From assembly GCF_018200035.1 (NCBI RefSeq), contig NZ_CP073581.1:1236501-1300500 (forward strand): DNA of 64,000 bases, read 5' to 3'. Origin of the DNA: Sulfitobacter albidus. GTDB lineage: Bacteria; Pseudomonadota; Alphaproteobacteria; Rhodobacterales; Rhodobacteraceae. Both the position numbers and the translations under genes were made by a program. Shown here one piece after another: positions 19,189 through 33,416 of this stretch; the first letter of the stretch is position 1; each line of letters starts with the position of its first letter. The notes under the pieces were generated by a model. It was given only the letters and a program-made list of their open reading frames with translations, had not been told where the DNA came from and ran no database searches.

Positions 19189-19192
19189 ATGA
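19055..19192 (+). CDS. Candidate upstream ORF overlapping the RTX start
   Basis: Forty-five codons beginning with two adjacent ATG and ending TGA inside the ATGA overlap with the RTX start codon. GGAG lies just upstream. The peptide ([12 protein letters not shown]...) is basic, proline- and threonine-rich and matches no family I know. It could be a leader peptide that couples translation to the giant gene, or chance. Confidence 0.25.
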
Positions 19193-22100
19193 TCAGAACC
19201 ATCGATTTCAACGCCCTTACGCAGGGCGAAACCGTGACCAACCAATTCGAAGCCGAAGGTGTGGTGATCTCTGCCGTGGCCAATGGCACGGGCCGCAATC
19301 AGGCGCTGATCTTTGACAGCGCCAACCCGACGGCGGCAGATCCCGATCTGGGTACCACAACACAGGAAAACATCCTGATCATCTCGGAGGATGGATCGAC
19401 GGACGTTCCGAACGACAATGCGTCGGGCGGCACGTTCGTATTTGACTTCACCGGCCTCTCGACCGTGAAATCGCTCTCCTTCATCGATCTGGAAGAGCCC
19501 GCACGGCTGTTTTTCTACGACGCGCAGGGCAACGTCATCAGCGAGCAGTTCGTGCCCGCGGACGGTGGCGACAATCAGGTCAGCGTCGTGCAGCTGTTCG
19601 TCGAGGGTGTCGACCGTTTCGAAGTCGTGCTGAGCGGCTCCGGCGCCGTCGATGATCTGATCTTTGACGACATGCAGCCCGAAGAGCCGCCTGTCGCCGA
19701 AGGTGACGGCATCGTGTCGGGCGACGACACCGGCAACACCATTGATCTGGCCTACGTTGGCGATCCCGAAGGGGACCGGATCGACGCGGGCGACGCGCTG
19801 ATTGCGGGCGAGGCGCCCGATGATGATATCGTCGACGCGCGCGGCGGGGATGACAACATCTCTTCGTTCGAGGGCGACGACGACGTATACGCCGGTGCCG
19901 GTGACGATACCGTTGCGGGTGGGAACGGCAACGATCTGATCTTTGGGGACCGCACGCTTGCCGATGGCGCGGATGCGGGCGAGGCCACGCGCGAAAGCTT
20001 TAACTGGAGCGAGCTGGGCGCCGCCGATGGCGCAGCCGTGTCGTCGTTCACGCAGGATACCGGTACGACCAACGTCACCTTCACCAACGTCGGCTCGACC
20101 CCGAAAACCAGCGTCACCTACAGCACCGACGCGCAGAACACCGACAACATCGACGGGGCGGGCGAAGCCGTCAGCGCGACGAGCTCGCTGGAAAGCGAAA
20201 CCCGCGCCGAAGGGCAGGGCAGCACATTCGAGCTGGCTTTTGACGCCCCCGTGAGCAACGTCGATTTCAACATCAACGACATCGATGGCGACAGCAATGT
20301 GCGCATCACCGCTTTCGATGCCGAGGGCAACCCCGTCGTGGTCACCCTCAACGGCGGCTCCGGCCTTACGCTCAGCGATACCGACGCCGTGCCTGGCGCC
20401 GATACCGCCAACAGCGATGGCAATTACGCCGACGATACCAATCCCGTCTACAGCCTGAATGTGGATATCGCGGGCCCCGTTTCGCGCATCGTGATCGAGC
20501 ACACGCAGGACGGACCAAACGGCACCAACGTCAACATCTCCGACGTGTTCTTTACCGCCGGTGGCGGTGTGATGGTGCCCGGTGGCAATGACGTGCTGAT
20601 GGGCGAAGCCGGCGACGACACGATCTTTGGCGAAGGCGGTGATGACGTCATCACCGGTGGTGTGGGCGCGGACAGCCTGTCGGGCGGCGACGACGCCGAC
20701 CTCTTCATCGGCGGCAACGCCGGCGATGTGGTCGACGGTGGCACCGGCGGCGACGACAACGACACGCTGGATCTGAGCGACAGCGGCCCGCTGCGTCTGG
20801 TCGAGGAAACCGTGGACGCGGATGGCGATTCCACCTCCGGCACGATCGAGTTCCTCAACGGGGACGGCACCAGCGGCGGTTTCATGACCTTTGCCGAAAT
20901 CGAAACGCTGATCCTGCCGCCCGCCGGCAATCAGCCGCCCCTTGCCGTGGACGATACGCTGACCATCGACGAAGACACCACCGGCAGCCTCAACGTGCTG
21001 GCCAACGACAGCGATCCGGATCTTGATCCGCTGACCGTCACGGCAGCCTCCAGCCCCAATGGCGAAGTCACGTTCACGCCCGATGGCACCGTGACCTTCA
21101 CGCCCGCGCCCGATTTCAACGGGCCTGCCGTGATCAACTACACCATCAGCGATGGCAATGGCGGCTTTGACGATGCGGTTGTCAATGTGACCGTGAACCC
21201 GGTCAATGATGCGCCGATCGCCGTGGACGACAATGAGGACGCGGTCGAAGATGAGGCAATCATCATCGACGTGCTCGGCAACGACAGCGATCCCGACGGC
21301 GACGCGATCCGCGTGACAGAGGCGACATCGCCCAACGGCGACGTGGTGATCAACGGTGACGGCACGCTGAGCTTTACCCCGGCGCCGAATTTCACCGGCG
21401 ACACGGTCATTGACTACACAATCACGGACGATAATGGCGGCTTTGACACCGCGCAGGTCAACCTGTTCGTCGATCCGCGTCAGGATCCCCCCGTGGCCGA
21501 GGACGATACCGCGACGACGGACGAGGATACGACCGTCGTAATCCCCGTGCTGGCCAATGACAGCGATCCCGATGGCGATGCGATCCGCGTGACAGAGGCG
21601 ACATCGCCCAACGGTGACGTGGTGATCAACGGCGACGGCACGCTGAGCTTTACCCCGGCGCCTGACTTCTCCGGCGACGCGGTGATCAACTACACGATCA
21701 CCGACGACAATGGCGGTTTTGACGACGCGGTCGTGACCGTGACCGTCGGTGCGGTGAACGATCCGCCCGTGGCGACCGATGACACGGCGACGACGGATGA
21801 GGATACGACCGTCGTGATCCCGGTGCTGGCCAATGATACGGACCCGGATGCAGATCCGCTGACGGTGACGGAAGCGACGTCGGACTTTGGCGATGTGGTC
21901 ATCAACGACGATGGCACGCTGAGCTTCACGCCCAACCCGGATTTCTTCGGCGAGGCGGTGATCAACTACACCATCACCGACGGCAATGGCGGCTTTGACG
22001 ACGCGGTCGTGACCGTGACGGTCAACGACGTGGACGACGCCCTGGCGCCCGTCGCCAACGACGACAGCGACACGACGCCCGAGGACACCCCGGTCACCAT

Positions 22101-25100
22101 CGACGTGCTGGGCAACGACACCGATCCGAACGGCGATCCGCTGACCGTGACCGAGGCCACCAGCCCCAACGGCGACGTGGTGATCAACGACGACGGCACG
22201 CTGACCTTCACCCCCGCGCCCGATTTCAACGGCCCGGCGGAGATCGCCTATACCATCACCGACGGCAACGGCGGCTTTGACGACGCGGTCGTGACCGTGG
22301 ATGTGACGCCGGTGCAGGATCCCCCCGTTGCGGTGGACGATTCTGCCAGCACCGACGAGGATACCGCCGTCACGATCCCCGTGCTGGCCAACGACAGCGA
22401 TCCCGATGGCGATCCGCTGGAGGTGACCGAGGCGACCTCGCCAGACGGCGATGTGGTGATCAACGATGACGGCACGCTGACCTTTACGCCCGCACCGGAC
22501 TTCACCGGCGACGCGGTGATCGACTACACGATCACCGATGGCAACGGTGGCTTTGACACCGCGCAGGTGACTGTGTCGGTGGGCGAGGTGTCCGACGCGC
22601 CCGTGGCCGTGGATGACACCGCCGAGACGGATGAGGACACGCCCGTCACGATCCCCGTGCTGGCCAACGACAGCGATCCCGACGGCGATCCGCTGACCGT
22701 GACCGAGGCGACAAGCCCCGACGGCACCGTCACCATCAACGACGATGGCACGCTCGAGTTCACGCCCAACCCCGATTTCAACGGGCCGACCACGATCAGC
22801 TACACCATCACCGACGGCAACGGCGGTGAGGACACGGCAACCGTCGATGTCACGGTGAACCCGGTCAACGATCCGCCGGTGGCCGAGGACGACGTGGCCG
22901 AGACCGACGAAGGCACGCCCGTGATCATTCCGGTGCTGGCCAACGACAGCGATCCCGAGGGCGATCCGCTTGAGGTGATCGCGGCGTCGAGCCCCGATGG
23001 CGAGGTGGTCATCAACGACGATGGCACGCTGACCTTTACGCCGGACGATGATTTCACCGGCGAGGCGACCATCAACTACACGATCACCGACGGCAACGGC
23101 GGCACCGATCCGGCCATCGTCACGGTCACCGTGAACGACGTGAACGATCCGCCCGTGGCGACCGATGACACGGCGACGACGGATGAGGATACGACCGTCG
23201 TGATCCCGGTGCTGGCCAATGATACGGACCCGGATGCGGATCCGCTGACGGTGACGGAAGCGACGTCGGACTTTGGCGATGTGGTCATCAACGACGATGG
23301 CACGCTGAGCTTCACGCCCAACCCGGATTTCTTCGGCGAGGCGGTGATCAACTACACCATCACCGACGGCAATGGCGGATTTGACGACGCGGTCGTGACC
23401 GTGACGGTCAACGACGTGGACGACGCCCTGGCGCCCGTCGCCAACGACGACAGCGACACGACGCCCGAGGACACCCCTGTCACCATCGACGTGCTGGGCA
23501 ACGACACGGATCCCAATGGCGATCCGCTGACCGTGACCGAGGCCACCAGCCCCAACGGCGACGTGGTAATCAACGACGACGGCACGCTGACCTTCACGCC
23601 CGCGCCCGACTTCAACGGCCCGGCGGAGATCGCCTATACCATCACCGACGGCAATGGCGGCTTTGACGACGCGGTCGTGACCGTGGATGTGACGCCGGTG
23701 CAGGATGCGCCGGTGGCCGAGGATGATTGCGTCTCGACCGATCTTGATACGGCGGTGACCATTCCGGTGCTGGCGAACGACAGTGATCCGGACGGTGATC
23801 CGCTGACCGTGACGGCGGCGACGTCGCCCGATGGCGATGTGGTCATCAACGACGATGGCACGATCACCTTCACCCCGACGCCCGGATTTACCGGTGATGC
23901 TGAGATCGCCTATACCATCGACGATGGTCAGGGCGGCACCGATGATGCGGTGGCGAAAGTCTCCGTCGGGGAGGTTTCCGGTGCGCCGGTGGCCGAGGAC
24001 GATACGGCGGAAACGGATGAAGATACGCCCGTTACCATCGACGTACTGGCCAATGACAGCGACCCGGACGGCGATCCGCTGACGGTTGTGGTGGCGACAT
24101 CGCCCAACGGCGACGTGGTTATCAACGACGACGGTACGCTGACCTTCACGCCCGATCCAGATTTCAACGGTGAGGCGATCATCACCTACGACATCATCGA
24201 CGGCAACGGCGGTCGCGACGTGGGCGAAGTGGTTGTGACGGTCAACCCCGTCAACGATGGCCCTGCGGCCGAGGACGACGTGGCGGACACCAACCTCAAC
24301 ACGCCCGTGATCATTCCGGTGCTGGCCAACGATAGCGATCCCGAAGGCGATCCGCTGACAGTGATCGCGGCATCGAGCCCGAACGGTGACGTGGTCATCA
24401 ACGACGACGGCACCGTGACCTTCACGCCCGATCCCGACTTCTTTGGTGATGCGACCATCAACTACACCATCGGGGACGGTAACGGCGGCACCGATCCGGC
24501 CATCGTGACGGTGACCGTGCGGGACGGTATCGTGACGGGCACCGACGACGGAGAGCTCATTGACGAGAACTTCGACGGCGATCCCGAAGGCGATGTGGTT
24601 GACGGTGGCGACGGCTTCCTGCCCGGCGAGGGCCCGGAGGATGACATCATCGAGGCCGGTGGCGGCGATGACACCATCAACGCAGGTCTTGGCGACGACG
24701 ATGTGTCGGGCGGCGACGGAAACGATCTGATCGACGGCGGCCCGGGCGACGACAGCCTGGCGGGCGACGACGGCGATGACACCATCGGCGGCGGCACCGG
24801 CGAAGACACGCTTGAAGGCGGCGCGGGCGACGACAACCTCAACGGTGGCGACGACAACGACAGCCTCGACGGCGGCGACGGTGGCGATGTGCTCAATGGC
24901 GACGCGGGCGACGATACGCTCGACGGCGGCGCGGGCGACGACACGCTTGTCGGCGGAGAGGGTGACGATAGCCTTGTCGGTGGTCCGGGTGAGGATACGC
25001 TCGATGGCGGTGTCGGCGACGACACGCTCGAAGGCGGCGATGACGACGATCTGCTGATCGGCAACGAAGGCAACGACAGCCTCGATGGCGGTGCGGGCGA

Positions 25101-27569
25101 CGACACGCTCGAAGGCGGCCCCGGCGACGATACCGCAACGGGCGGTGCAGGCGACGATGTGGTCAACGGCGGCGAGGGCGACGACAGCCTCGACGGCGGT
25201 GACGGCAACGACACCGTCAACGGCGGACCCGGCGACGACACCGTCAACGGCAACGCGGGTGAGGACAGCCTGATCGGCGGCGACGGCAACGACAGCCTGG
25301 ACGGTGGCGATGACGCCGATACGCTCGAAGGCGGTCTGGACGACGATACGCTTGACGGCGGTGACGGCGATGACCTGCTCAACGGTGAGGAGGGCGACGA
25401 TAGCCTGATCGGCGGCGAGGGCAACGATAGTCTCGACGGTGGTGACGGGGCGGATACGCTCGACGGCGGACCCGGCGACGACGCGGTGCTTGGCGGCGAC
25501 GGTAACGACAGCCTCGATGGCGGGGACGGCAACGACACCGTCAACGGCAACGTGGGCGACGATACGGTCAACGGCGGCATCGGCGACGACAGCCTGCTGG
25601 GCGAAGAGGGCGACGACCTTCTGGACGGTGGCGACGGCGCTGACACAATCGAAGGCGGTGACGGCTCTGACACCGTGATCGGTGGCGCGGGCGACGATGT
25701 CATCGACACCGACAACGGCGATGTGCTGCCCGATCTTGGTGTGCCGGGTGTGTTCGATCCCGATCCGGATCCGGAGAATGATCGCGACAGCGTCGATGGC
25801 GGGGACGGCAACGACACCATCCGCACCGGCGACGATCGTGACACCATCAACGGCGGCACCGGCGAGGATGTCATCAACGCAGGCATCGACGACGATATCG
25901 TCGACGGCGGGGATGACGACGACCGCATCGTTGGTGGCGAGGGTAATGACAGCATCCTTGGCGGCGAAGGGGACGATCTGATCTTTGCCGGTAACGACCC
26001 CGACGAGATCCCCGACGGGCTCGACATTCCCGACGATGGTTCGGGTGTCGGTGGCATCCCGGATCCACGTCCCGACAACGGGCGCGATACCGTGGACGGC
26101 GGCGCCGGAAACGACACCATCTTTGGGGCCGACGACGACGATCTGCTGATCGGCGGCGAGGGCGATGACCTGCTCGACGGTGAAATCGACGATGACACGC
26201 TTCTGGGCGGCGTCGGCGACGACACCCTGATCGGCGGACAGGGCGACGACAGCCTTGAGGGCGGACGGGGCAACGACAGCCTCGAAGGCTCCGAAGGCAA
26301 CGACACCCTGCGTGGCAACCGTGAGGACGACAGTCTGCACGGCGGCGACGGCGACGATATGCTCGACGGGGGCGGCGAAAACGACAGCCTCTCCGGCGAT
26401 GCGGGCGACGATACGCTGCAGGGCGGCACCGGTGACGACACGCTTGACGGTGGGATCGGTGACGACAGCCTCGATGGCGGTGCCGGTGACGATACCGTCG
26501 AAGGCGGTGACGGCGATGACACGATTACGGGCAACACCGGTGCAGACAGCCTGCACGGTGGCGCCGGTAACGACGACATCGATGGCGGCGCGGACGATGA
26601 TCTGCTGAGCGGTGATGCGGGCGACGACACCATTGCGGGCGGTCTGGGCGATGATACGCTCAACGGCGGTGAGGGTGACGATGTCCTGACGGGCGGCTCC
26701 GGCGACGACATCTTCGACGGTGGTGACGGCAACGACACGATGACGGGGGGCGCGGATCGCGACAACTTTGTCAACGTGAATGCCGGCGATATCGTGGACG
26801 GCTCTGAAACGGGGGATGATTTCGACTGTCTCGACCTGACGGGCTCCGCCCCGAAGGTGGCAGCCTGAACATCCTGCCCGATCCGGCGGATCCCGATAAC
26901 CCGGAGAACGGTATCGTTCAGTACTTCAACGCCGACGGCACTGACGCGGGTCAGCTGATCTTCTCGAACATCGAAAAGGTCATCCCCTGCTTCACCCCCG
27001 GCACGCTGATCGCCACCCCAACGGGCGAGCGTCGTGTCGAGGAGCTGGAGGTCGGTGACCGGGTCATCACCCGCGACAACGGCATGCAGGTGATCCGCTG
27101 GGTCGGCAAGCGTGACATGCCGGGCGAAGAACTGGCAGCAAAGGAACACCTGCGCCCCGTTCTGATCCAGCAAGGCGCGCTCGGCAACGGTCTGCCAGAG
27201 CGGGACATGATGGTCTCTCCCCAGCACCGGGTGCTGGTGGCCAACGACAAGACGGCCCTCTACTTTGAGGAGCGTGAAGTCCTGGTCGCCGCAAAACACC
27301 TGACTGACATGGAAGGGATCGACGTGGTGGAGGTGTCGCAGACGACCTACATCCACATCATGTTCGACCGCCACGAGGTGGTTCTGTCCGACGGCACCTG
27401 GACCGAGAGCTTCCAGCCCGGCGACATGTCGCTGGCCGGTGTGGGCGACGCGTCCCGCGAGGAGATCCTAGAGCTCTTCCCGGAACTGGCCACGCAGGAA
27501 GGGATCGATGCCTACGCCTCCGCGCGCAAGTCGCTGAAAAAGCATGAGGCAAAGCTCATCACCAAGTAA
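19189..27569 (+). CDS. Giant RTX protein: cadherin-like repeats, RTX block and C-terminal Hint domain (one frame break)
   Basis: About 2,793 residues after repair of one missing base in the C run at 26849-26852. Order: an N-terminal beta-sandwich (1-165), a short RTX patch (168-258), a second beta domain (265-461), another RTX patch, 13 cadherin-like repeats of about 92 residues (582-1780; each opens like [17 protein letters not shown]), a long block of GGxGxDxLx calcium-binding repeats (1783-2540), and a Hint domain starting at Cys2601 ([24 protein letters not shown]). No Sec signal is present, which fits type I secretion, but no secretion genes are in the window. AGGAG lies eight bases before the chosen ATG. 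It is probably a cell-surface or secreted adhesin-like protein that may cleave itself at the Hint domain; this is inference. Without the repair, translation would stop before the Hint domain. Confidence 0.85.
21754..22320 (+). repeat. Direct duplication, copy 1 (567 bases)
   Basis: This stretch (cadherin-like units 4-5) recurs 1,386 bases downstream. The encoded residues are the same; the roughly ten base differences I can see are all silent, for example GATGCAGATCCG against GATGCGGATCCG. Confidence 0.9.
23140..23706 (+). repeat. Direct duplication, copy 2 (567 bases)
   Basis: Second copy (units 9-10). Similarity ends abruptly at both edges: upstream the sequences diverge before GTGAACGATCC, downstream after GGTGCAGGAT. 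Confidence 0.9.
24534..26820 (+). repeat. RTX nonapeptide-repeat coding block
   Basis: Dozens of 27-base units encode GGxGxDxLx (for example [11 protein letters not shown]), the beta-roll repeat that binds calcium once outside the cell. Two non-repeat inserts rich in Asp and Pro (around 25710-25790 and 25985-26080) interrupt the array. Confidence 0.92.
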
Positions 27570-27683: not shown

Positions 27684-27871
27684 CAATTGTGGCGCGATTG
27701 TCCACCACCGCGCGTCAATTCCTTGCAGACCCCGCGCATGTTTCCAATACACTGTAAAATATGGTTAAAATGCAGCGTTCATTAGGCGAAACGCTGCCGA
27801 CGCGGTATCACTGTCCCGGGGATGTGACGAGTCGATGCGCCGATTTTGGCGCCGATCAAGGGGATTGGGAC

Positions 27872-28972
27872 ATGGCTGATATTACTGGAACGCCCGGCGC
27901 GGATTCACTGCCCGGTACGGACGAGGACGACCGCATCACCGGTCTGGACGGCAATGACACGCTGAGCGGTGGGGCGGGCAACGATCTGCTCGACGGTGGG
28001 CCGGGGGCGGATCTGTATTTTGGCGGTGCGGGCAACGACACTCTGATCGGCAGCGCCGAGACGGATGATTTCTTTGGCGGGGACGGCGACGACGTGCTGA
28101 TCGGCAACGGCGGTGGCGATCTGTTCAACGGCGGCGCGGGTGCCGACACCATGACCGGGGGCGACGGGCGCGACATCTTCTACAACGTCACGGCGGGCGA
28201 TGTGATTGACGGCGGCGAAGGCGGCGAGGATTTCGACCGTATCAACGCCGAAAGCGCGATCCCTTCCGGCGGCAGCCTGCGCGTCGATCGTGACCCCGAC
28301 AACATCGAGAACGGAACGATCCGCCTGTTTGATGCCGATGGCAACGCCGCAGGGCAGATTGATTTCAAGAACATCGAAAAGGTCGTGCCGTGTTTCACGC
28401 CCGGTACCATGATCGCCACACCGCGCGGGCAGGTCGCGGTCGAGAACTTGCAGGTCGGGGACCGGGTCATCACCCGTGACAACGGGTTGCAGGCGATCCG
28501 CTGGATTGGTCGGCGCGATCTGAGCGCGCGCGATTTTCTTGACGCGCCGCACCTGGCGCCCGTCCGTATCGGCAAGGGCGCGCTTGGCAATGATCTGCCC
28601 GAACGTGCGCTGATGGTCTCGCCCAATCACCGGATGCTGGTGGCCAATGACAAGACCGCGCTTTACTTTGAGGAGCGCGAGGTGCTCGTGGCCGCAAAAC
28701 ACCTGACCGGCGTGCCGGGGATCGACATCGTGGAGGCGGTCGATACGGCCTATATCCACCTGATGTTCGACCAGCACGAGGTTATCCTGTCGGACGGCTG
28801 CTGGAGCGAGAGCTTCCAGCCCGGTCTGCAATCGCTCGCCGGGGTGGGGAACGCGCAGCGGCTTGAATTACTGGAGCTTTTCCCCGAACTCGCCACCCAT
28901 GAGGGTGTGGCCCGCTACGCCCCCGCGCGCACGGTGGCCAAGGCGCATGAGGCGGCGCTGGTGCTCAGGTAG
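27872..28972 (+). CDS. Compact RTX-Hint protein, paralogue of the giant neighbour
   Basis: A 366-residue protein with about seven RTX repeats ([12 protein letters not shown] through [10 protein letters not shown], residues 3-110), a linker, and a Hint domain beginning at Cys174 ([21 protein letters not shown]), with the block-B-like SPNHRMLVA and the same C-terminal [17 protein letters not shown]. By eye the Hint half is roughly two-thirds identical to that of the giant protein, and long segments such as [20 protein letters not shown] are the same. No Sec signal, so type I secretion is likely. The ATG is preceded by AAGGGG. It is intact and so serves as the template that supports repair of the giant gene. 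Confidence 0.85.
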
Positions 28973-29555
28973 CGCGCCAGGCGGCCCAGGCTTCGGGCGT
29001 GTCGAGATCGGTGCGCGCGCGGGTGCCGGGCAAAGGGATCATCCGGGTGACGTGGGCGTGGGCCTGCACCACCGCGCGCCCGCCGGTGTCGCCCGTCAGC
29101 GCGCGCAGGGCGGGCCAGAGATCGCGGTGAAAGGCAATCGGATGCCCCGGTGCGCCGTTCTCTGTGCAGGCCCGCCAGATGCGCGTGGCGCTGTCATCGA
29201 CCGCCGCCAGCACCCGCGCAAAATCCGCCATCTCAAGGTCGGGCATATCGGCGAGCGCGACAAGTGCCGCGCGCGCGTCGGGCAGGGCGACCACCCCCGC
29301 ACTCAGCGAGGCATTCATGCCGAGGCTCGGGTCCGCCACGCGCACGATCTTGACGTCCAGCCCATCCAGCGCCGCATCGCGCGGGTGTGGCGCGGGGGGC
29401 AGGGTGACGATCACCGTCCCGCGCGTCGCCGCACAGAGCCGGGCTGCCTGACGGCGCAGCAGCGGCACGCCGTTCACCTCCTCCAGCAGCTTGTCGGCCC
29501 CGCGCATCCGGGTGGAGCCGCCGGCGGCCAGCAAAATCGCGGGCAGATCGCTCAT
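28965..29555 (-). CDS. MobA-like NTP transferase (molybdenum cofactor cytidylyltransferase-like)
   Basis: A 196-residue nucleotidyltransferase of the MobA/MocA type. The N-terminus [21 protein letters not shown] is the NTP-binding signature, [12 protein letters not shown] is the metal-binding DMP region, and [14 protein letters not shown] is typical of MocA-type enzymes that add CMP to the molybdenum cofactor for xanthine dehydrogenase-like enzymes. No molybdoenzyme gene lies nearby. It overlaps the convergent RTX-Hint gene by eight bases and the stop of the adjoining oxidoreductase gene by ATGA. Confidence 0.82.
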
Positions 29556-31968
29556 CCGCGCATCCGCGCGCCGTCCGCGTCAAACAGCGGTGTCGTGACC
29601 AGCCGCGCGGGCCGCATCTGGCCGAGGATTTCGATCTCGACCGCGAGGCCCTCTGCGGCCAGCGCTGTGGGCACAAACCCCTGTGCCACCGACACGCCCG
29701 CATGGTGCGAAAACCCGCCCGAGGTGCAGAACCCCACGACCGTGCCACCGTGCCAGATCGGCTCATATCCCTGCACATCCGCATCCTCCGCCTCGACGAC
29801 AAAGGCGCAGAGCTTGCGGGCGGGGCCGGTGGCGCGCTCGGCCTCCGCTGCCGCGCGGCCGATGAAATCAGTGTTCTTTTTCCACGCGATGAACCGGTCC
29901 AGCCCGGTCTCGGCCGCCGTGTAATCCGGCCCGAATTCCAACAACCACCCGCCAAAGAACTTGTCCAGTCGCAGCGCCATCATCGCGCGCATCCCGAAAG
30001 GCGTGATCCCGTGTGGCTGCCCCGCCTCCCACAGCGCGCGCCACAGACTGCGCTGGGACATCGCATCGCAATATATCTCAAAACCGAGATCGCCAGTGTA
30101 GCTGACGCGCTGCACGGTGCAAGCCACTTGCCCCACGGTGAGGGGGCGCACGTCAAGGAACGCCATGTCGGACGCATCCTCCAACGTGCAGGCCGCCAGC
30201 ACATCGCGCGCGCGCGGCCCCGCGATCTGGAACCCGGTGAGCCTGTCGGAGATATTCTCGACCCGCACGCCCTCTGGCGCGTGCTGATCGAACCAGCGCA
30301 TGTGAAACGCCTGCGCGCCGTAAGAGGCGGTCAACTGGAACACCTCCTCGCCCAGACAAGAGATCGTAAAATCCCCGATCAGCCGCCCTTGGGCGAAAGC
30401 ATCGGCGTCAGCGACAGACGCCCGACCTTGGGCACGCGCCCCGCCATGATCCGATCAAGCCAGCCGCGCGCGCCCGATCCCGTCACGCGGTACTTGCCAA
30501 AATTCTGCACCTCGTTGATGCCCACGCCGCCGCGCACCGCCGCCACTTCGCGCGCGGTGGCGTCAAACGCGTCGGATCGGCGGAACGACGGCGTCTCGTA
30601 GGTCGGCTCATCCCCTTGGGCAAAGTAGTTGGGCACTTCCAGCCCGTATTGATGCCCCCAGACCGCGCCCATCTCGCTGAATATATCGTACATCGGCGTC
30701 GTATTGTGGGGTCGCGCGGCGGGCAGTTCTTCGTTCGGGTAGCTGACGGAGAACCGTTTTTGGTAGTTTTCGATCACCTTGGGCAGCGTATAGCCGGGCG
30801 AGATCCACTTGCCGAAGCGCGCCACGTCCATGGCAAAGACATCGCGCTCCGGCTCCCCCTCGATCATCCATTGCGCCAGCGTCAGCCCGACGCCACCGCC
30901 CTGCGAAAATCCCGCCATGACGCCACAGGCCGACCAATAGTTGCGCAAGCCCGGCACGGAACCGACCAGCGGATTGCCGTCGGGGGCAAAGGTGAACGGC
31001 CCGTGGATCACGTTCTTCACGCCCGCGCGCTCCAGATCGGGGAAGCGTTTGTAGGCAAAGCTGATGCTGTCCTCGATCTTGTCGAAATCATCGTCGAGCA
31101 GGTCCTGCCCGAAACTCCACGGCGTGCCGCCCACGGCCCAGGGGCGGCAGGTCTGCTCGTAAAACCCGATGCACAATCCGCGCCCTTCCTGCCGCAGATA
31201 GCTTTCCCCGGCGGGGTCCATCACATGCGGATGCTCATGGCCGTCGGCCATCATCTGCTCGATCAGCGGCACGGGTTCGGTCACCAGATACTGATGCTCC
31301 ATCGGGTGGAGCGGCAGGTAGACGCCGGCCATCGCGCCGACCTCACGCGCCCACAACCCGCCCGCGTTGACCACATGCTCCGCGTGCACGGTGCCGCGGT
31401 CGGTGACCACGTCCCAGGTGCCGTCCGCACGCTGGGTCGTCGCGGTGACCATCGTATGCGTGTGGATCTGCGCGCCCCCCATGCGCGCGGCCTTTGCGTA
31501 GGCGTGCGTGGTGCCCGAAGGATCCAGATGCCCGTCGAGCGGATCGTAGAGCGCGCCGAGAATCCCGTCGAGGTTTGTGACAGGCGCGATGCGCGCGATC
31601 TCTTCGGGGCCGACGATCTCGGTCTCAAGGCCCATAAACCGGTGCTTGGCCCGCTCTGCCAGCAGCATGTCGAACCGTTCGGGCGTGTCGGCAAGCGTCA
31701 CACCGCCCACGTGGTGCAACCCGCAGGACATGCCCGTGATCTCCTCCAACTCCTTGTAGAGCTTGATCGTATAGCCCTGAAGCGCGGCCATGTTCGTATC
31801 GCCGTTAAGCGTGTGAAACCCGCCCGCCGCGTGCCACGTGCTGCCCGATGTCAGCTCGGACCGTTCCAGCAGCATCACGTCCGACCAGCCCAGTTTCGTG
31901 AGGTGATAGAGCACAGAGGCGCCGACGACGCCGCCGCCGATGACGCAGACGCGGGTGGTGTTTTGCAT
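29552..31968 (-). CDS. FAD-dependent oxidoreductase with GcvT domain, dimethylglycine/sarcosine dehydrogenase-like (one frame break)
   Basis: An 805-residue enzyme. An N-terminal DAO-type FAD domain (VCVIGGGVVGASVLYHLTKLG; SGSTWHAAGG for covalent or tight FAD binding) is followed by a middle FAO-M domain (PMYDIFSEMGAVWG) and a C-terminal GcvT/aminomethyltransferase domain that binds folate (VSYTGDLGFEIYC; MALRLDKFFGGWLLE). Such enzymes demethylate dimethylglycine or sarcosine, passing the one-carbon unit to tetrahydrofolate. The frame breaks at CCC 30386-30388; one extra base joins LSPKG to RLIGDFTISCLGEE and gives 806 codons. A second enzyme of the same design lies 1.5 kb away on the other strand. 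Confidence 0.87.
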
Positions 31969-32109
31969 GGGGGCGGTCCTTTCGATAGGGGGCTGCTGTG
32001 CGCCTAGGGTTGGGCGAGCGTGCCGCCGGTGGCAAGGGCGTTTGCGACAGGTTTCGTCGTATTTGCACGCCGCGCTTGGAGTGTCGCGGCCGCGCGCTAC
32101 CTGCCGTGC

Positions 32110-33416
32110 ATGACCCTGACCGATCTGCACCCCGCCACGCTCTTGCGCCTCGCGCGCCAATTCGCCCGCAAGCTTTGGGTGCGGGTCGTCGTGATGGGGC
32201 TGATGTCGCTGGTCGCCCTCGGTGTCACCCGCGTGATCGAGCGTTTCGTGCCCGATGAGCTGGCGCAAACCCTCGACGGGGCCGCCGCCGACCGTCTGTT
32301 GCAGTTGATCGCCGACGCGATGCTTGCGGTCACGATCTTCTCGATCACCGTCATGGTCTCGGTGCACCGCGCCACCAGCACGCAATGGACGCCCCGCGTG
32401 CACCGGCTGATCATCGAGGACCGCACCACGCAGAACGTGCTTGCCGTGTTCATTGGCGCCTATGTCTATGCCCTCGTCGGGATCATCCTGCGCGAAACGG
32501 GCGTCTATGAGGACGACCGCGCATTCGTGCTGTTCTGCATGACGGTGGCGGTGCTGGCGGTGATCGTACTCTACCTCATTCGATGGGTGCTGCATCTGCA
32601 AAGCTTTGGCAGCCTCACCGACACCACCCGCGATGTGGAGCAGACGGCACGCCGATCCTTTCGCGAGCGGCTGGAAAATCCCTGCCTTGGCGCGCAACCG
32701 CTGACCGGGGAGATCCCCGAAGGCGCGCGCATCGTCGAGGCACGTGAAAGCGGTTATATCCAGTACATCCACCCGAGGCGCTGAATGCCACCGCGCAGGA
32801 GCACGACCTGACCGTGTACCTCAGCCGCAACATCGGCAGCTTTGTCTTTCTGGGCGCCCCGCTGCTGGCCGTGGACGGGGGCGACGACGCTACCGACTGG
32901 GATGCCGTCGCCGACGATCTGCGCGCCAGCGTCGTGCAGGGCGATGTGCGCACGTTTGAACAGGATCCGCGTTTCGGCCTGATCGTCATGGGGGAGATCG
33001 GGTCAAAGGCGCTGTCGCCCGGCGTCAACGATCCTGGCACCGCCATCGACGTGATTACCCGTGTGGGCCGCATCCTGTCGAATTACAGCGATGAGACGGA
33101 GAACACCCCCGAAGAGCCGTTGGACCATCTTTATGTCCGCCCCCTCGATCCCGCCGATCTGCTGGCTGATGGATTTGGCGCGCTGGCGCGCGACGGCGCA
33201 GGCACGGTCGAGGTGCAGCAACGCCTGCAACAGACCCTCGCGGGGCTGATGCGCCATCCCGACGACGGTTTGGCCAAGGCCGCCCGCGACCGTGCCGTGC
33301 TGGAACTGCGCCGGGCGCTGGCGGCGCTCGATTTCGCGCCGGACCGTGAGCGGTTGTTGGCGGCGGCGGATGACGAGGTGCGCGCGCGGGCCGAGGAAAA
33401 CTCCCAAGGCACATAG
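32110..33416 (+). CDS. DUF2254 membrane protein (one frame break)
   Basis: A 435-residue predicted membrane protein of the DUF2254 family. About four hydrophobic segments fill the first half (VRVVVMGLMSLVALGV; LLQLIADAMLAVTIFSITVMVSV; VLAVFIGAYVYALVGIIL; AVLAVIVLYLIRWVLHL), followed by a soluble domain with KALSPGVNDPGTAIDVI, the family signature. Function is unknown. The frame breaks at CCC 32772-32774, where one base more joins IQYIHP to EALNATAQEHDLTVY and yields 436 codons. It sits between two similar oxidoreductase genes and is transcribed with the second. Confidence 0.8.

Follow-up and report, generated by a model that had tools for sequence, protein, structure and literature searches.

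The stretch analysed here (hereafter the window) is a 64,000-nucleotide region of the Sulfitobacter albidus genome (Rhodobacteraceae; contig NZ_CP073581.1, positions 1,236,501 to 1,300,500), which contains a long gene for an adhesin-type protein with cadherin-like and RTX repeats, followed by a Hint domain and a short C-terminal tail (Table 1). Pfam searches, carried out separately for the adhesin frame and for the Hint part of the gene, revealed 13 stretches of Big_9, 13 of Cadherin_5 and 32 of the RTX nonapeptide repeat (PF00353) in the former and identified the latter as Hint_2 (PF13403), with a score of 208.3 bits against a cut-off of 28.4 and a match extending over positions 1–147 of the 147 model positions, far above chance. 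The original prediction, made from the DNA letters alone, had named the same ATG start, the cadherin-like repeats and the RTX block, as well as a Hint domain with block A, a catalytic cysteine preceded by proline, an SPQH block B and no final His-Asn, and all these features were found again in the Pfam matches and on reading the sequence. It had also placed them in one continuous reading frame, which proved incorrect; the adhesin frame stops at 26,868, the Hint part and the preceding linker are open only in a different frame, and the numbering of the cysteine as Cys2601 presupposes a frame shift.

Table 1. Features of the Hint_2-bearing adhesin gene and of the gene that follows it, in window coordinates.
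Feature	Position	Strand	Basis or remark
RTX/cadherin-repeat frame, 2,559 residues	19189..26868	+	ATG at 19189; stop reached past the frame break
Cadherin/Ig-like repeat block, residues ~581–1780	20929..24528	+	Approximate borders, by eye
RTX nonapeptide block	24529..26790	+	Approximate borders, by eye
C-run, frame change relative to intact relatives	26849..26852	+	Comparison with relatives
Linker from RTX block to Hint domain, read in the Hint frame	26865..26984	+	
Hint_2 domain, PF13403, 147/147 model positions	26985..27425	+	Pfam
Pro at −1 and Cys1, the latter within the block A motif	26985..26987 (Pro); 26988..26990 (Cys1)	+	
Block B, SPQH	27216..27227	+	His kept in all 94 Cys1 clusters
Block F-like, TYIH...DRHEV	27345..27380	+	
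TESF, with Glu-Ser where inteins have His-Asn	27402..27413	+	
46-residue C-terminal tail, LFPEL...ARxxLxxHEAxL	27429..27566	+	No Pfam match
Following gene, for an RTX protein of 403 residues that carries a Hint_2 of its own (196 bits), PCFTPGT and SPNH motifs	27761..28972	+	Single frame

Close relatives (L016, L014 and others) read Ala-Pro-Glu-Gly-Gly in frame at the site of the C-run, and all 80 named loci, whether orthologous or paralogous, have an open frame of 141 residues or more (median 1,071) upstream of the Hint domain. Split genes are also found beside the adhesin; the DUF2254 gene of the window (forward strand, 32,020–33,416) is divided over two frames (32,784/32,814), as is the DAO-GCV_T gene (reverse strand, 29,555–32,772; near 30,343/30,382), and a second Hint_2 gene of the S. 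albidus genome is split at a C-run (L009/L013). Because of the intact frame in the relatives and these other split genes, the frame break in the adhesin is likely an assembly error. A count of C and G runs over the window, in which systematic shortening was sought, speaks against an error of this kind, since the runs were ordinary and showed no general shortage. That count, together with the position of the break at a C-run and a break at the same kind of run in one of the 29 same-genus loci L014–L042 (L032, genome G039), would suit a gene truly broken in this strain, a pseudogene or a phase-variable gene from which no Hint-bearing adhesin is made; this seems rather unlikely, given that none of the 80 named loci is broken before the Hint domain, that further split genes lie in the same 64 kb and in the same genome, and that the completeness of the assembly (96.19%) is below that of most of the 39 genus mates. 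Inspection by eye suggests that the type of linker preceding the Hint domain is also present inside the same protein (20,767–20,928), where cadherin repeats, and no Hint domain, come after it.

Hint_2 is a large, already known family, of which the window protein is one more member. The nearest named relatives belong to Sulfitobacter (S. undariae, 92% over the Hint domain and tail), and in the RTX proteins of relatives the domain occupies the same C-terminal place; the window copy differs in being out of frame with its cargo, while the domain itself is no different. The S. albidus genome gives 13 rows of Hint_2 matches, two of which stem from a single split gene, so that the number of domains is 12, and all 40 genomes of the genus sample, including this one, contain Hint_2, with 6 to 19 matches each. 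The phylum sample of 398 genomes yielded 54 with a match, 27 of which belong to the window's family and 27 do not, with weak matches among the latter; this is read as 27 of 27 genomes within the family and 27 of 371 outside it. The former denominator comes from a search of the same sample for another domain, choice_anch_L (NF038133), which lists 27 same-family genomes (16 with and 11 without choice_anch_L), this total being read off the rows that precede those of lower kinship. Each of the same-family genomes has from 2 to at least 9 Hint_2 matches; in the class sample, 14 of 289 genomes have a match, and 244 plasmid records do, while a protein search of phage records found no Hint_2. In several genomes of the genus, Hint_2 matches are repeatedly found at distances of one to a few kb from each other.

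The 234 loci collected gave 260 distinct domains covering at least 90 model columns, and these formed 117 clusters at 70% identity. The cysteine at the first position (Cys1) is present in 94 of the clusters, all of which also have the block-B histidine. In the tree set of 114 representatives (the 117 clusters minus three truncated rows), 93 possess both residues, none has Cys1 without His, 15 have neither and six have His alone; two of these six carry Ser at position 1, L226 is probably cut by its frame, and in L091 a cysteine lies nearby that the alignment left unplaced. At the place of the intein His-Asn pair, Glu was found in 93 of 93 and Ser or Thr in 92 of 93 Cys1 clusters with letters there, followed mostly by Phe, Leu or Tyr, which speaks against splicing by Asn cyclisation. 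The minimum number of changes on the tree is 8 for Cys1, 7 for His and 2 for Glu; the rows without Cys1 form nine groups, in six of which most or all rows lack the His as well, and in alignment A1 (105 sequences, chosen for Cys1) His and Glu are invariant too.

The residue before Cys1 is Pro in 39 of the 94 clusters, Val in 19, Ile in 18, Ala in 6, Thr in 4, Ser, Phe and Lys in two each, Met and Cys in one each, and Gly in none. The original prediction had contrasted the proline with the glycine of hedgehog proteins and asked whether the acyl shift is possible; this concern is met in part, since proline is the commonest residue there, with Val and Ile accounting for 37 clusters more and Gly for none, and is a habit of the family and not a fault of the window protein. 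A hindered residue at this position could mean a thioester that is held until an acceptor arrives, or it could merely belong to a β-strand leading into the domain.

The part of the protein preceding the domain (the cargo) has a median length of 351 residues in the 94 Cys1 clusters, a lower bound because many loci were cut at 500 (L226, L224 and L009 were dropped), versus 70 residues in the 20 clusters without Cys1. Cargo shorter than 90 residues occurs in 7 of 94 and 13 of 20 clusters, respectively (Fisher p = 8.6 × 10−8), one of the seven being the window's own gene, cut by the edge of its locus, and the exceptions on the other side are seven of the 20 representatives lacking Cys1, with 130–255 residues before the domain. 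A domain that cuts off cargo would be expected to have its nucleophile where cargo is present.

The domain is located close to the C-terminus; among the 220 Cys1 domains whose end is complete, the distance to the stop is no more than 100 residues in 207, with a median of 47. Counted by cluster, 77 of 89 complete tails have at most 100 residues, and the other 12, with 143–214 residues, all come from genomes outside the window's family. A short motif, defined by a loose pattern, is shared by 62 of the 77 short tails, and a Pfam scan of eight tails gave one weak match below the cut-off and none for the others. Five of the long tails (L128, L146, L147, L203 and L173) share a conserved region of about 200 residues with no firm Pfam match.

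Host pieces on the N-terminal side of the domain, trimmed to 420 residues, were searched for the 101 of 117 clusters in which they reach 60 residues or more, and contained RTX repeats in 38 cases, choice_anch_L in four and Big_9 in four, with one to three cases each of AIDA/Ag43 types, LTD, NIDO, PA14, haem peroxidase and others; the named host domains of Hint_2 are of surface types. Among the 70 Cys1 hosts with a usable start, a Sec-like N-terminus was found in none at a threshold of 2.2 and in two at 1.8. The window adhesin itself, with its 32 RTX stretches and, by eye, no Sec-like N-terminus, has the pattern of a substrate of a type I secretion system (T1SS), and two PrtD-type T1SS ABC (ATP-binding cassette) proteins score over the cut-off in the S. 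albidus genome.

A comparison of proteins containing choice_anch_L, a domain presumably named for its occurrence with different C-terminal anchors, indicated an exchange of C-terminal modules. The domain is present in 27 of the 40 genomes of the genus sample and in 31 of the 398 of the phylum sample, and the C-termini were examined at the loci fetched by those searches, a part of all matches. In the window's family, 26 loci offered 24 complete C-termini from 11 genera, and all 24 end in Hint_2; of the other two, one breaks off within Hint_2 and the other is a fragment from the end of a contig. Outside the family, none of the 13 complete C-termini (14 loci) has Hint_2; nine of them have a hydrophobic stretch within their final 35 residues (12-residue mean 2.14–2.93), followed by basic residues, and look PEP-CTERM-like or Cys-bearing by eye, six of the nine coming from a single genus (g287). 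As for the remaining ends, that of L270 resembles a T1SS signal by eye, and three show neither feature, one being borderline at 1.91. The N-termini differ as well, with 12-residue means of 0.01–1.86 in 25 same-family loci versus 1.88–3.06 in the 12 outside loci with a start (L258 was left out); L270, among the two lowest outside values (1.88), has no evident signal. Exosortase was found in two of the 40 genomes of the genus, and Hint_2 in all 40.

These data, new in this analysis, place Hint_2 where other bacteria carry a sorting tail on choice_anch_L proteins, and the 24/24 versus 0/13 exchange suggests that Hint_2 may be a self-acting sorting module. In sorting of the PEP-CTERM/exosortase type the work is done by a separate membrane enzyme, and the proteins concerned have a Sec-like N-terminus, whereas Hint_2 would bring its own catalytic cysteine. 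In two pairs of loci (L004 with L010, and likewise L145 with L191), a choice_anch_L–Hint_2 gene adjoins a gene for a Hint_2 protein lacking both Cys1 and the block-B His, so that a seemingly live and a seemingly dead domain stand side by side.

A comparison of the family profile with solved HINT structures gave the best similarity to a bacterial intein-like (BIL) domain (2lwy, E-value 9.8e-6 over 31 positions), and then to inteins, including PI-SceI (1gpp, E-value 7.2e-4 over 44 positions), both similarities being confined to the block A region. Tested type B BIL domains reportedly come from Rhodobacter sphaeroides and R. capsulatus. According to the available parts of three papers, type B BIL domains lack intein block G and their cleavage is uncoupled from splicing (PMC4031507, PMC7765530, PMC5874633), which makes the statement of the original prediction that the function of the family is not described too strong. 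Hint_2 resembles them, as they are defined in the accessible text of two of these sources (PMC4031507, PMC7765530), in the HINT profile, Cys1, block B and the absence of block G, and differs in its near-terminal location and in being much expanded, the comparison with tested type B domains being one by definition and not by their sequences. An atypical cut on the C-terminal side, reported for type B BIL domains in the portion of PMC7765530 at hand, may also occur in Hint_2. Inteins differ in having a C-terminal His-Asn and a +1 nucleophile, in place of which the window protein has TESF. The hedgehog Hog domain is alike as a C-terminal HINT domain that would be cut on its N-terminal side and is followed by a variable region; the window protein scores 18.2 against a PF01079 cut-off of 29.7, has no Gly before Cys1, and no acceptor is known for Hint_2. 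Identity with the Hog domain was rejected on the score below the cut-off and on Pro instead of Gly. The FrpC protein of Neisseria is comparable as a T1SS-exported RTX protein that undergoes self-cleavage once secreted and is able to link itself covalently (PMC5472700 and PMC7846742, in the parts available). It differs in its calcium-dependent Asp-Pro chemistry via an anhydride and in its unrelated module.

The reading best in accord with these observations, which we hold to be probable, is that Hint_2, a domain of the type B BIL sort, sits on a protein exported without Sec and cuts the adhesin off on the N-terminal side of the domain without splicing. It is favoured because Cys1 never occurs without the His, domains lacking Cys1 mostly lack cargo, and His-Asn is replaced by Glu and Ser/Thr; the original prediction had also deemed cleavage without splicing the likelier activity. 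The sequences directly show the family to which the domain belongs, its active-site pattern, its location near the terminus and the lack of a Sec-like N-terminus, whereas the export route, the thioester and the cleavage we infer as follows. The adhesin, which has no Sec signal, would leave the cell probably through a type I secretion system; once it is exported and folded, Cys1, assisted by the block-B His, would attack the bond to the last residue of the cargo (Pro in the window protein, and mostly Pro, Val or Ile in its relatives); and the thioester thus formed would be resolved without splicing, separating the adhesin from the Hint domain and tail. Release and transfer to a surface acceptor are indistinguishable by sequence, and the exchange of tails makes transfer worth considering. 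The original prediction thus stands in part as an observation and has partial support as an interpretation; it had overlooked both the break in the frame and how large the family is.

Several points weigh against N-terminal cleavage of an exported adhesin. An independent-pairs test of the Cys1/His coupling found two supported pairs and was not significant, and the Fisher test of cargo length is uncorrected for kinship. The conserved Glu may be structural, since 18 of 18 representatives without Cys1 that have letters at this position keep it, and Pro, Val and Ile before a thioester are slow in intein chemistry and in thioester hydrolysis. As for export, four E. coli control signals score 1.99–2.52, so that the threshold of 2.2 is strict and misses one of them (1.99); neither of the PrtD-type T1SS genes is located in the window, and the tail of the window protein is unlike a classical RTX secretion signal by eye.

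Other readings share part of this evidence. In one of them, a variant of the reading above that specifies what becomes of the acyl group, the thioester might be passed to an amine, sugar or lipid at the surface, anchoring the cargo in the manner of a sortase or a hedgehog protein, but in cis. Hint_2 would then be a one-piece, Sec-independent surface-sorting device of Rhodobacteraceae, in which the domain's own cysteine forms a hindered thioester on Pro, Val or Ile, the variable tail recognises the acceptor or the secretion channel, and the module does in cis the job of a sorting tail and its sortase or exosortase, replacing such tails on choice_anch_L proteins. This proposal is tentative, and we would sooner doubt it than accept it. 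The presence of Hint_2 at all 24 complete C-termini within the family, nine of the 13 outside ends being hydrophobic, the rarity of exosortase in a genus whose 40 sampled genomes all have Hint_2, and a hindered residue, never Gly, before Cys1 are consistent with it; so is the region after Hint_2, which has about 47 residues in some bacterial families and about 200 in others, much as the adduct-recognition regions of Hog proteins vary. Yet no acceptor, partner gene or adduct was found, hydrolytic release predicts the same pattern, most of the hydrophobic tails come from one genus, and genome G609 has Hint_2 elsewhere while its choice_anch_L protein ends without one. It is rather improbable that the module serves export or stability as a folded tag without ever cleaving, with Cys1 and His kept for another reason. 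Domains without Cys1 still match the family in nine tree groups, and hosts without Sec-like N-termini make an export role of the module and tail plausible, but the His is missing in none of the 93 Cys1 representatives, the domains without Cys1 mostly have little cargo, and the related type B BIL domains are reported to cleave.

Beside N-terminal cleavage, an intein-like element that splices the cargo to the tail is very improbable, despite the presence of blocks A, B and F. In the register of split inteins, the penultimate His corresponds to Glu of Hint_2, the terminal Asn to Ser/Thr and the +1 nucleophile to Phe, Leu or Tyr; His-Asn does occur near the end in three of the 94 clusters, yet past the Glu-Ser motif. 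Some inteins use a C-terminal Glu, as stated in the available part of PMC4031507, but in Hint_2 the Glu is kept even where Cys1 is lost. The release of a C-terminal toxin, for which there is a model in some MafB proteins, where HINT precedes the toxic domain (PMC5472700, in the part available), has next to no probability here, given the predominance of short tails with a common motif and the lack of any firm Pfam match in the eight tails scanned.

No work on the function of Hint_2 in RTX or surface proteins turned up among the best-ranked results of a search of open literature, which includes few subscription journals. In the sections available, a 2025 paper reports Hint and RTX domains as over-represented in fast-responding Rhodobacteraceae (PMC12487129), another lists a mutation affecting a Hint protein "of unknown function" (PMC11999647), and the accessible part of PMC3305630 contains nothing on Hint domains. 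A study of the Phaeobacter exoproteome, as far as its accessible text goes, presumes maturation of one hemolysin-type protein (PMC3933643) and is not used as evidence here.

All 27 genomes of the window's family in the phylum sample carry Hint_2, on surface and RTX proteins. Should Hint_2 sort or release its cargo by its own action, this would partly account for the placing of adhesins, mostly without exosortase in the genus, and the domain would be a hedgehog-like acyl-transfer domain in bacteria.

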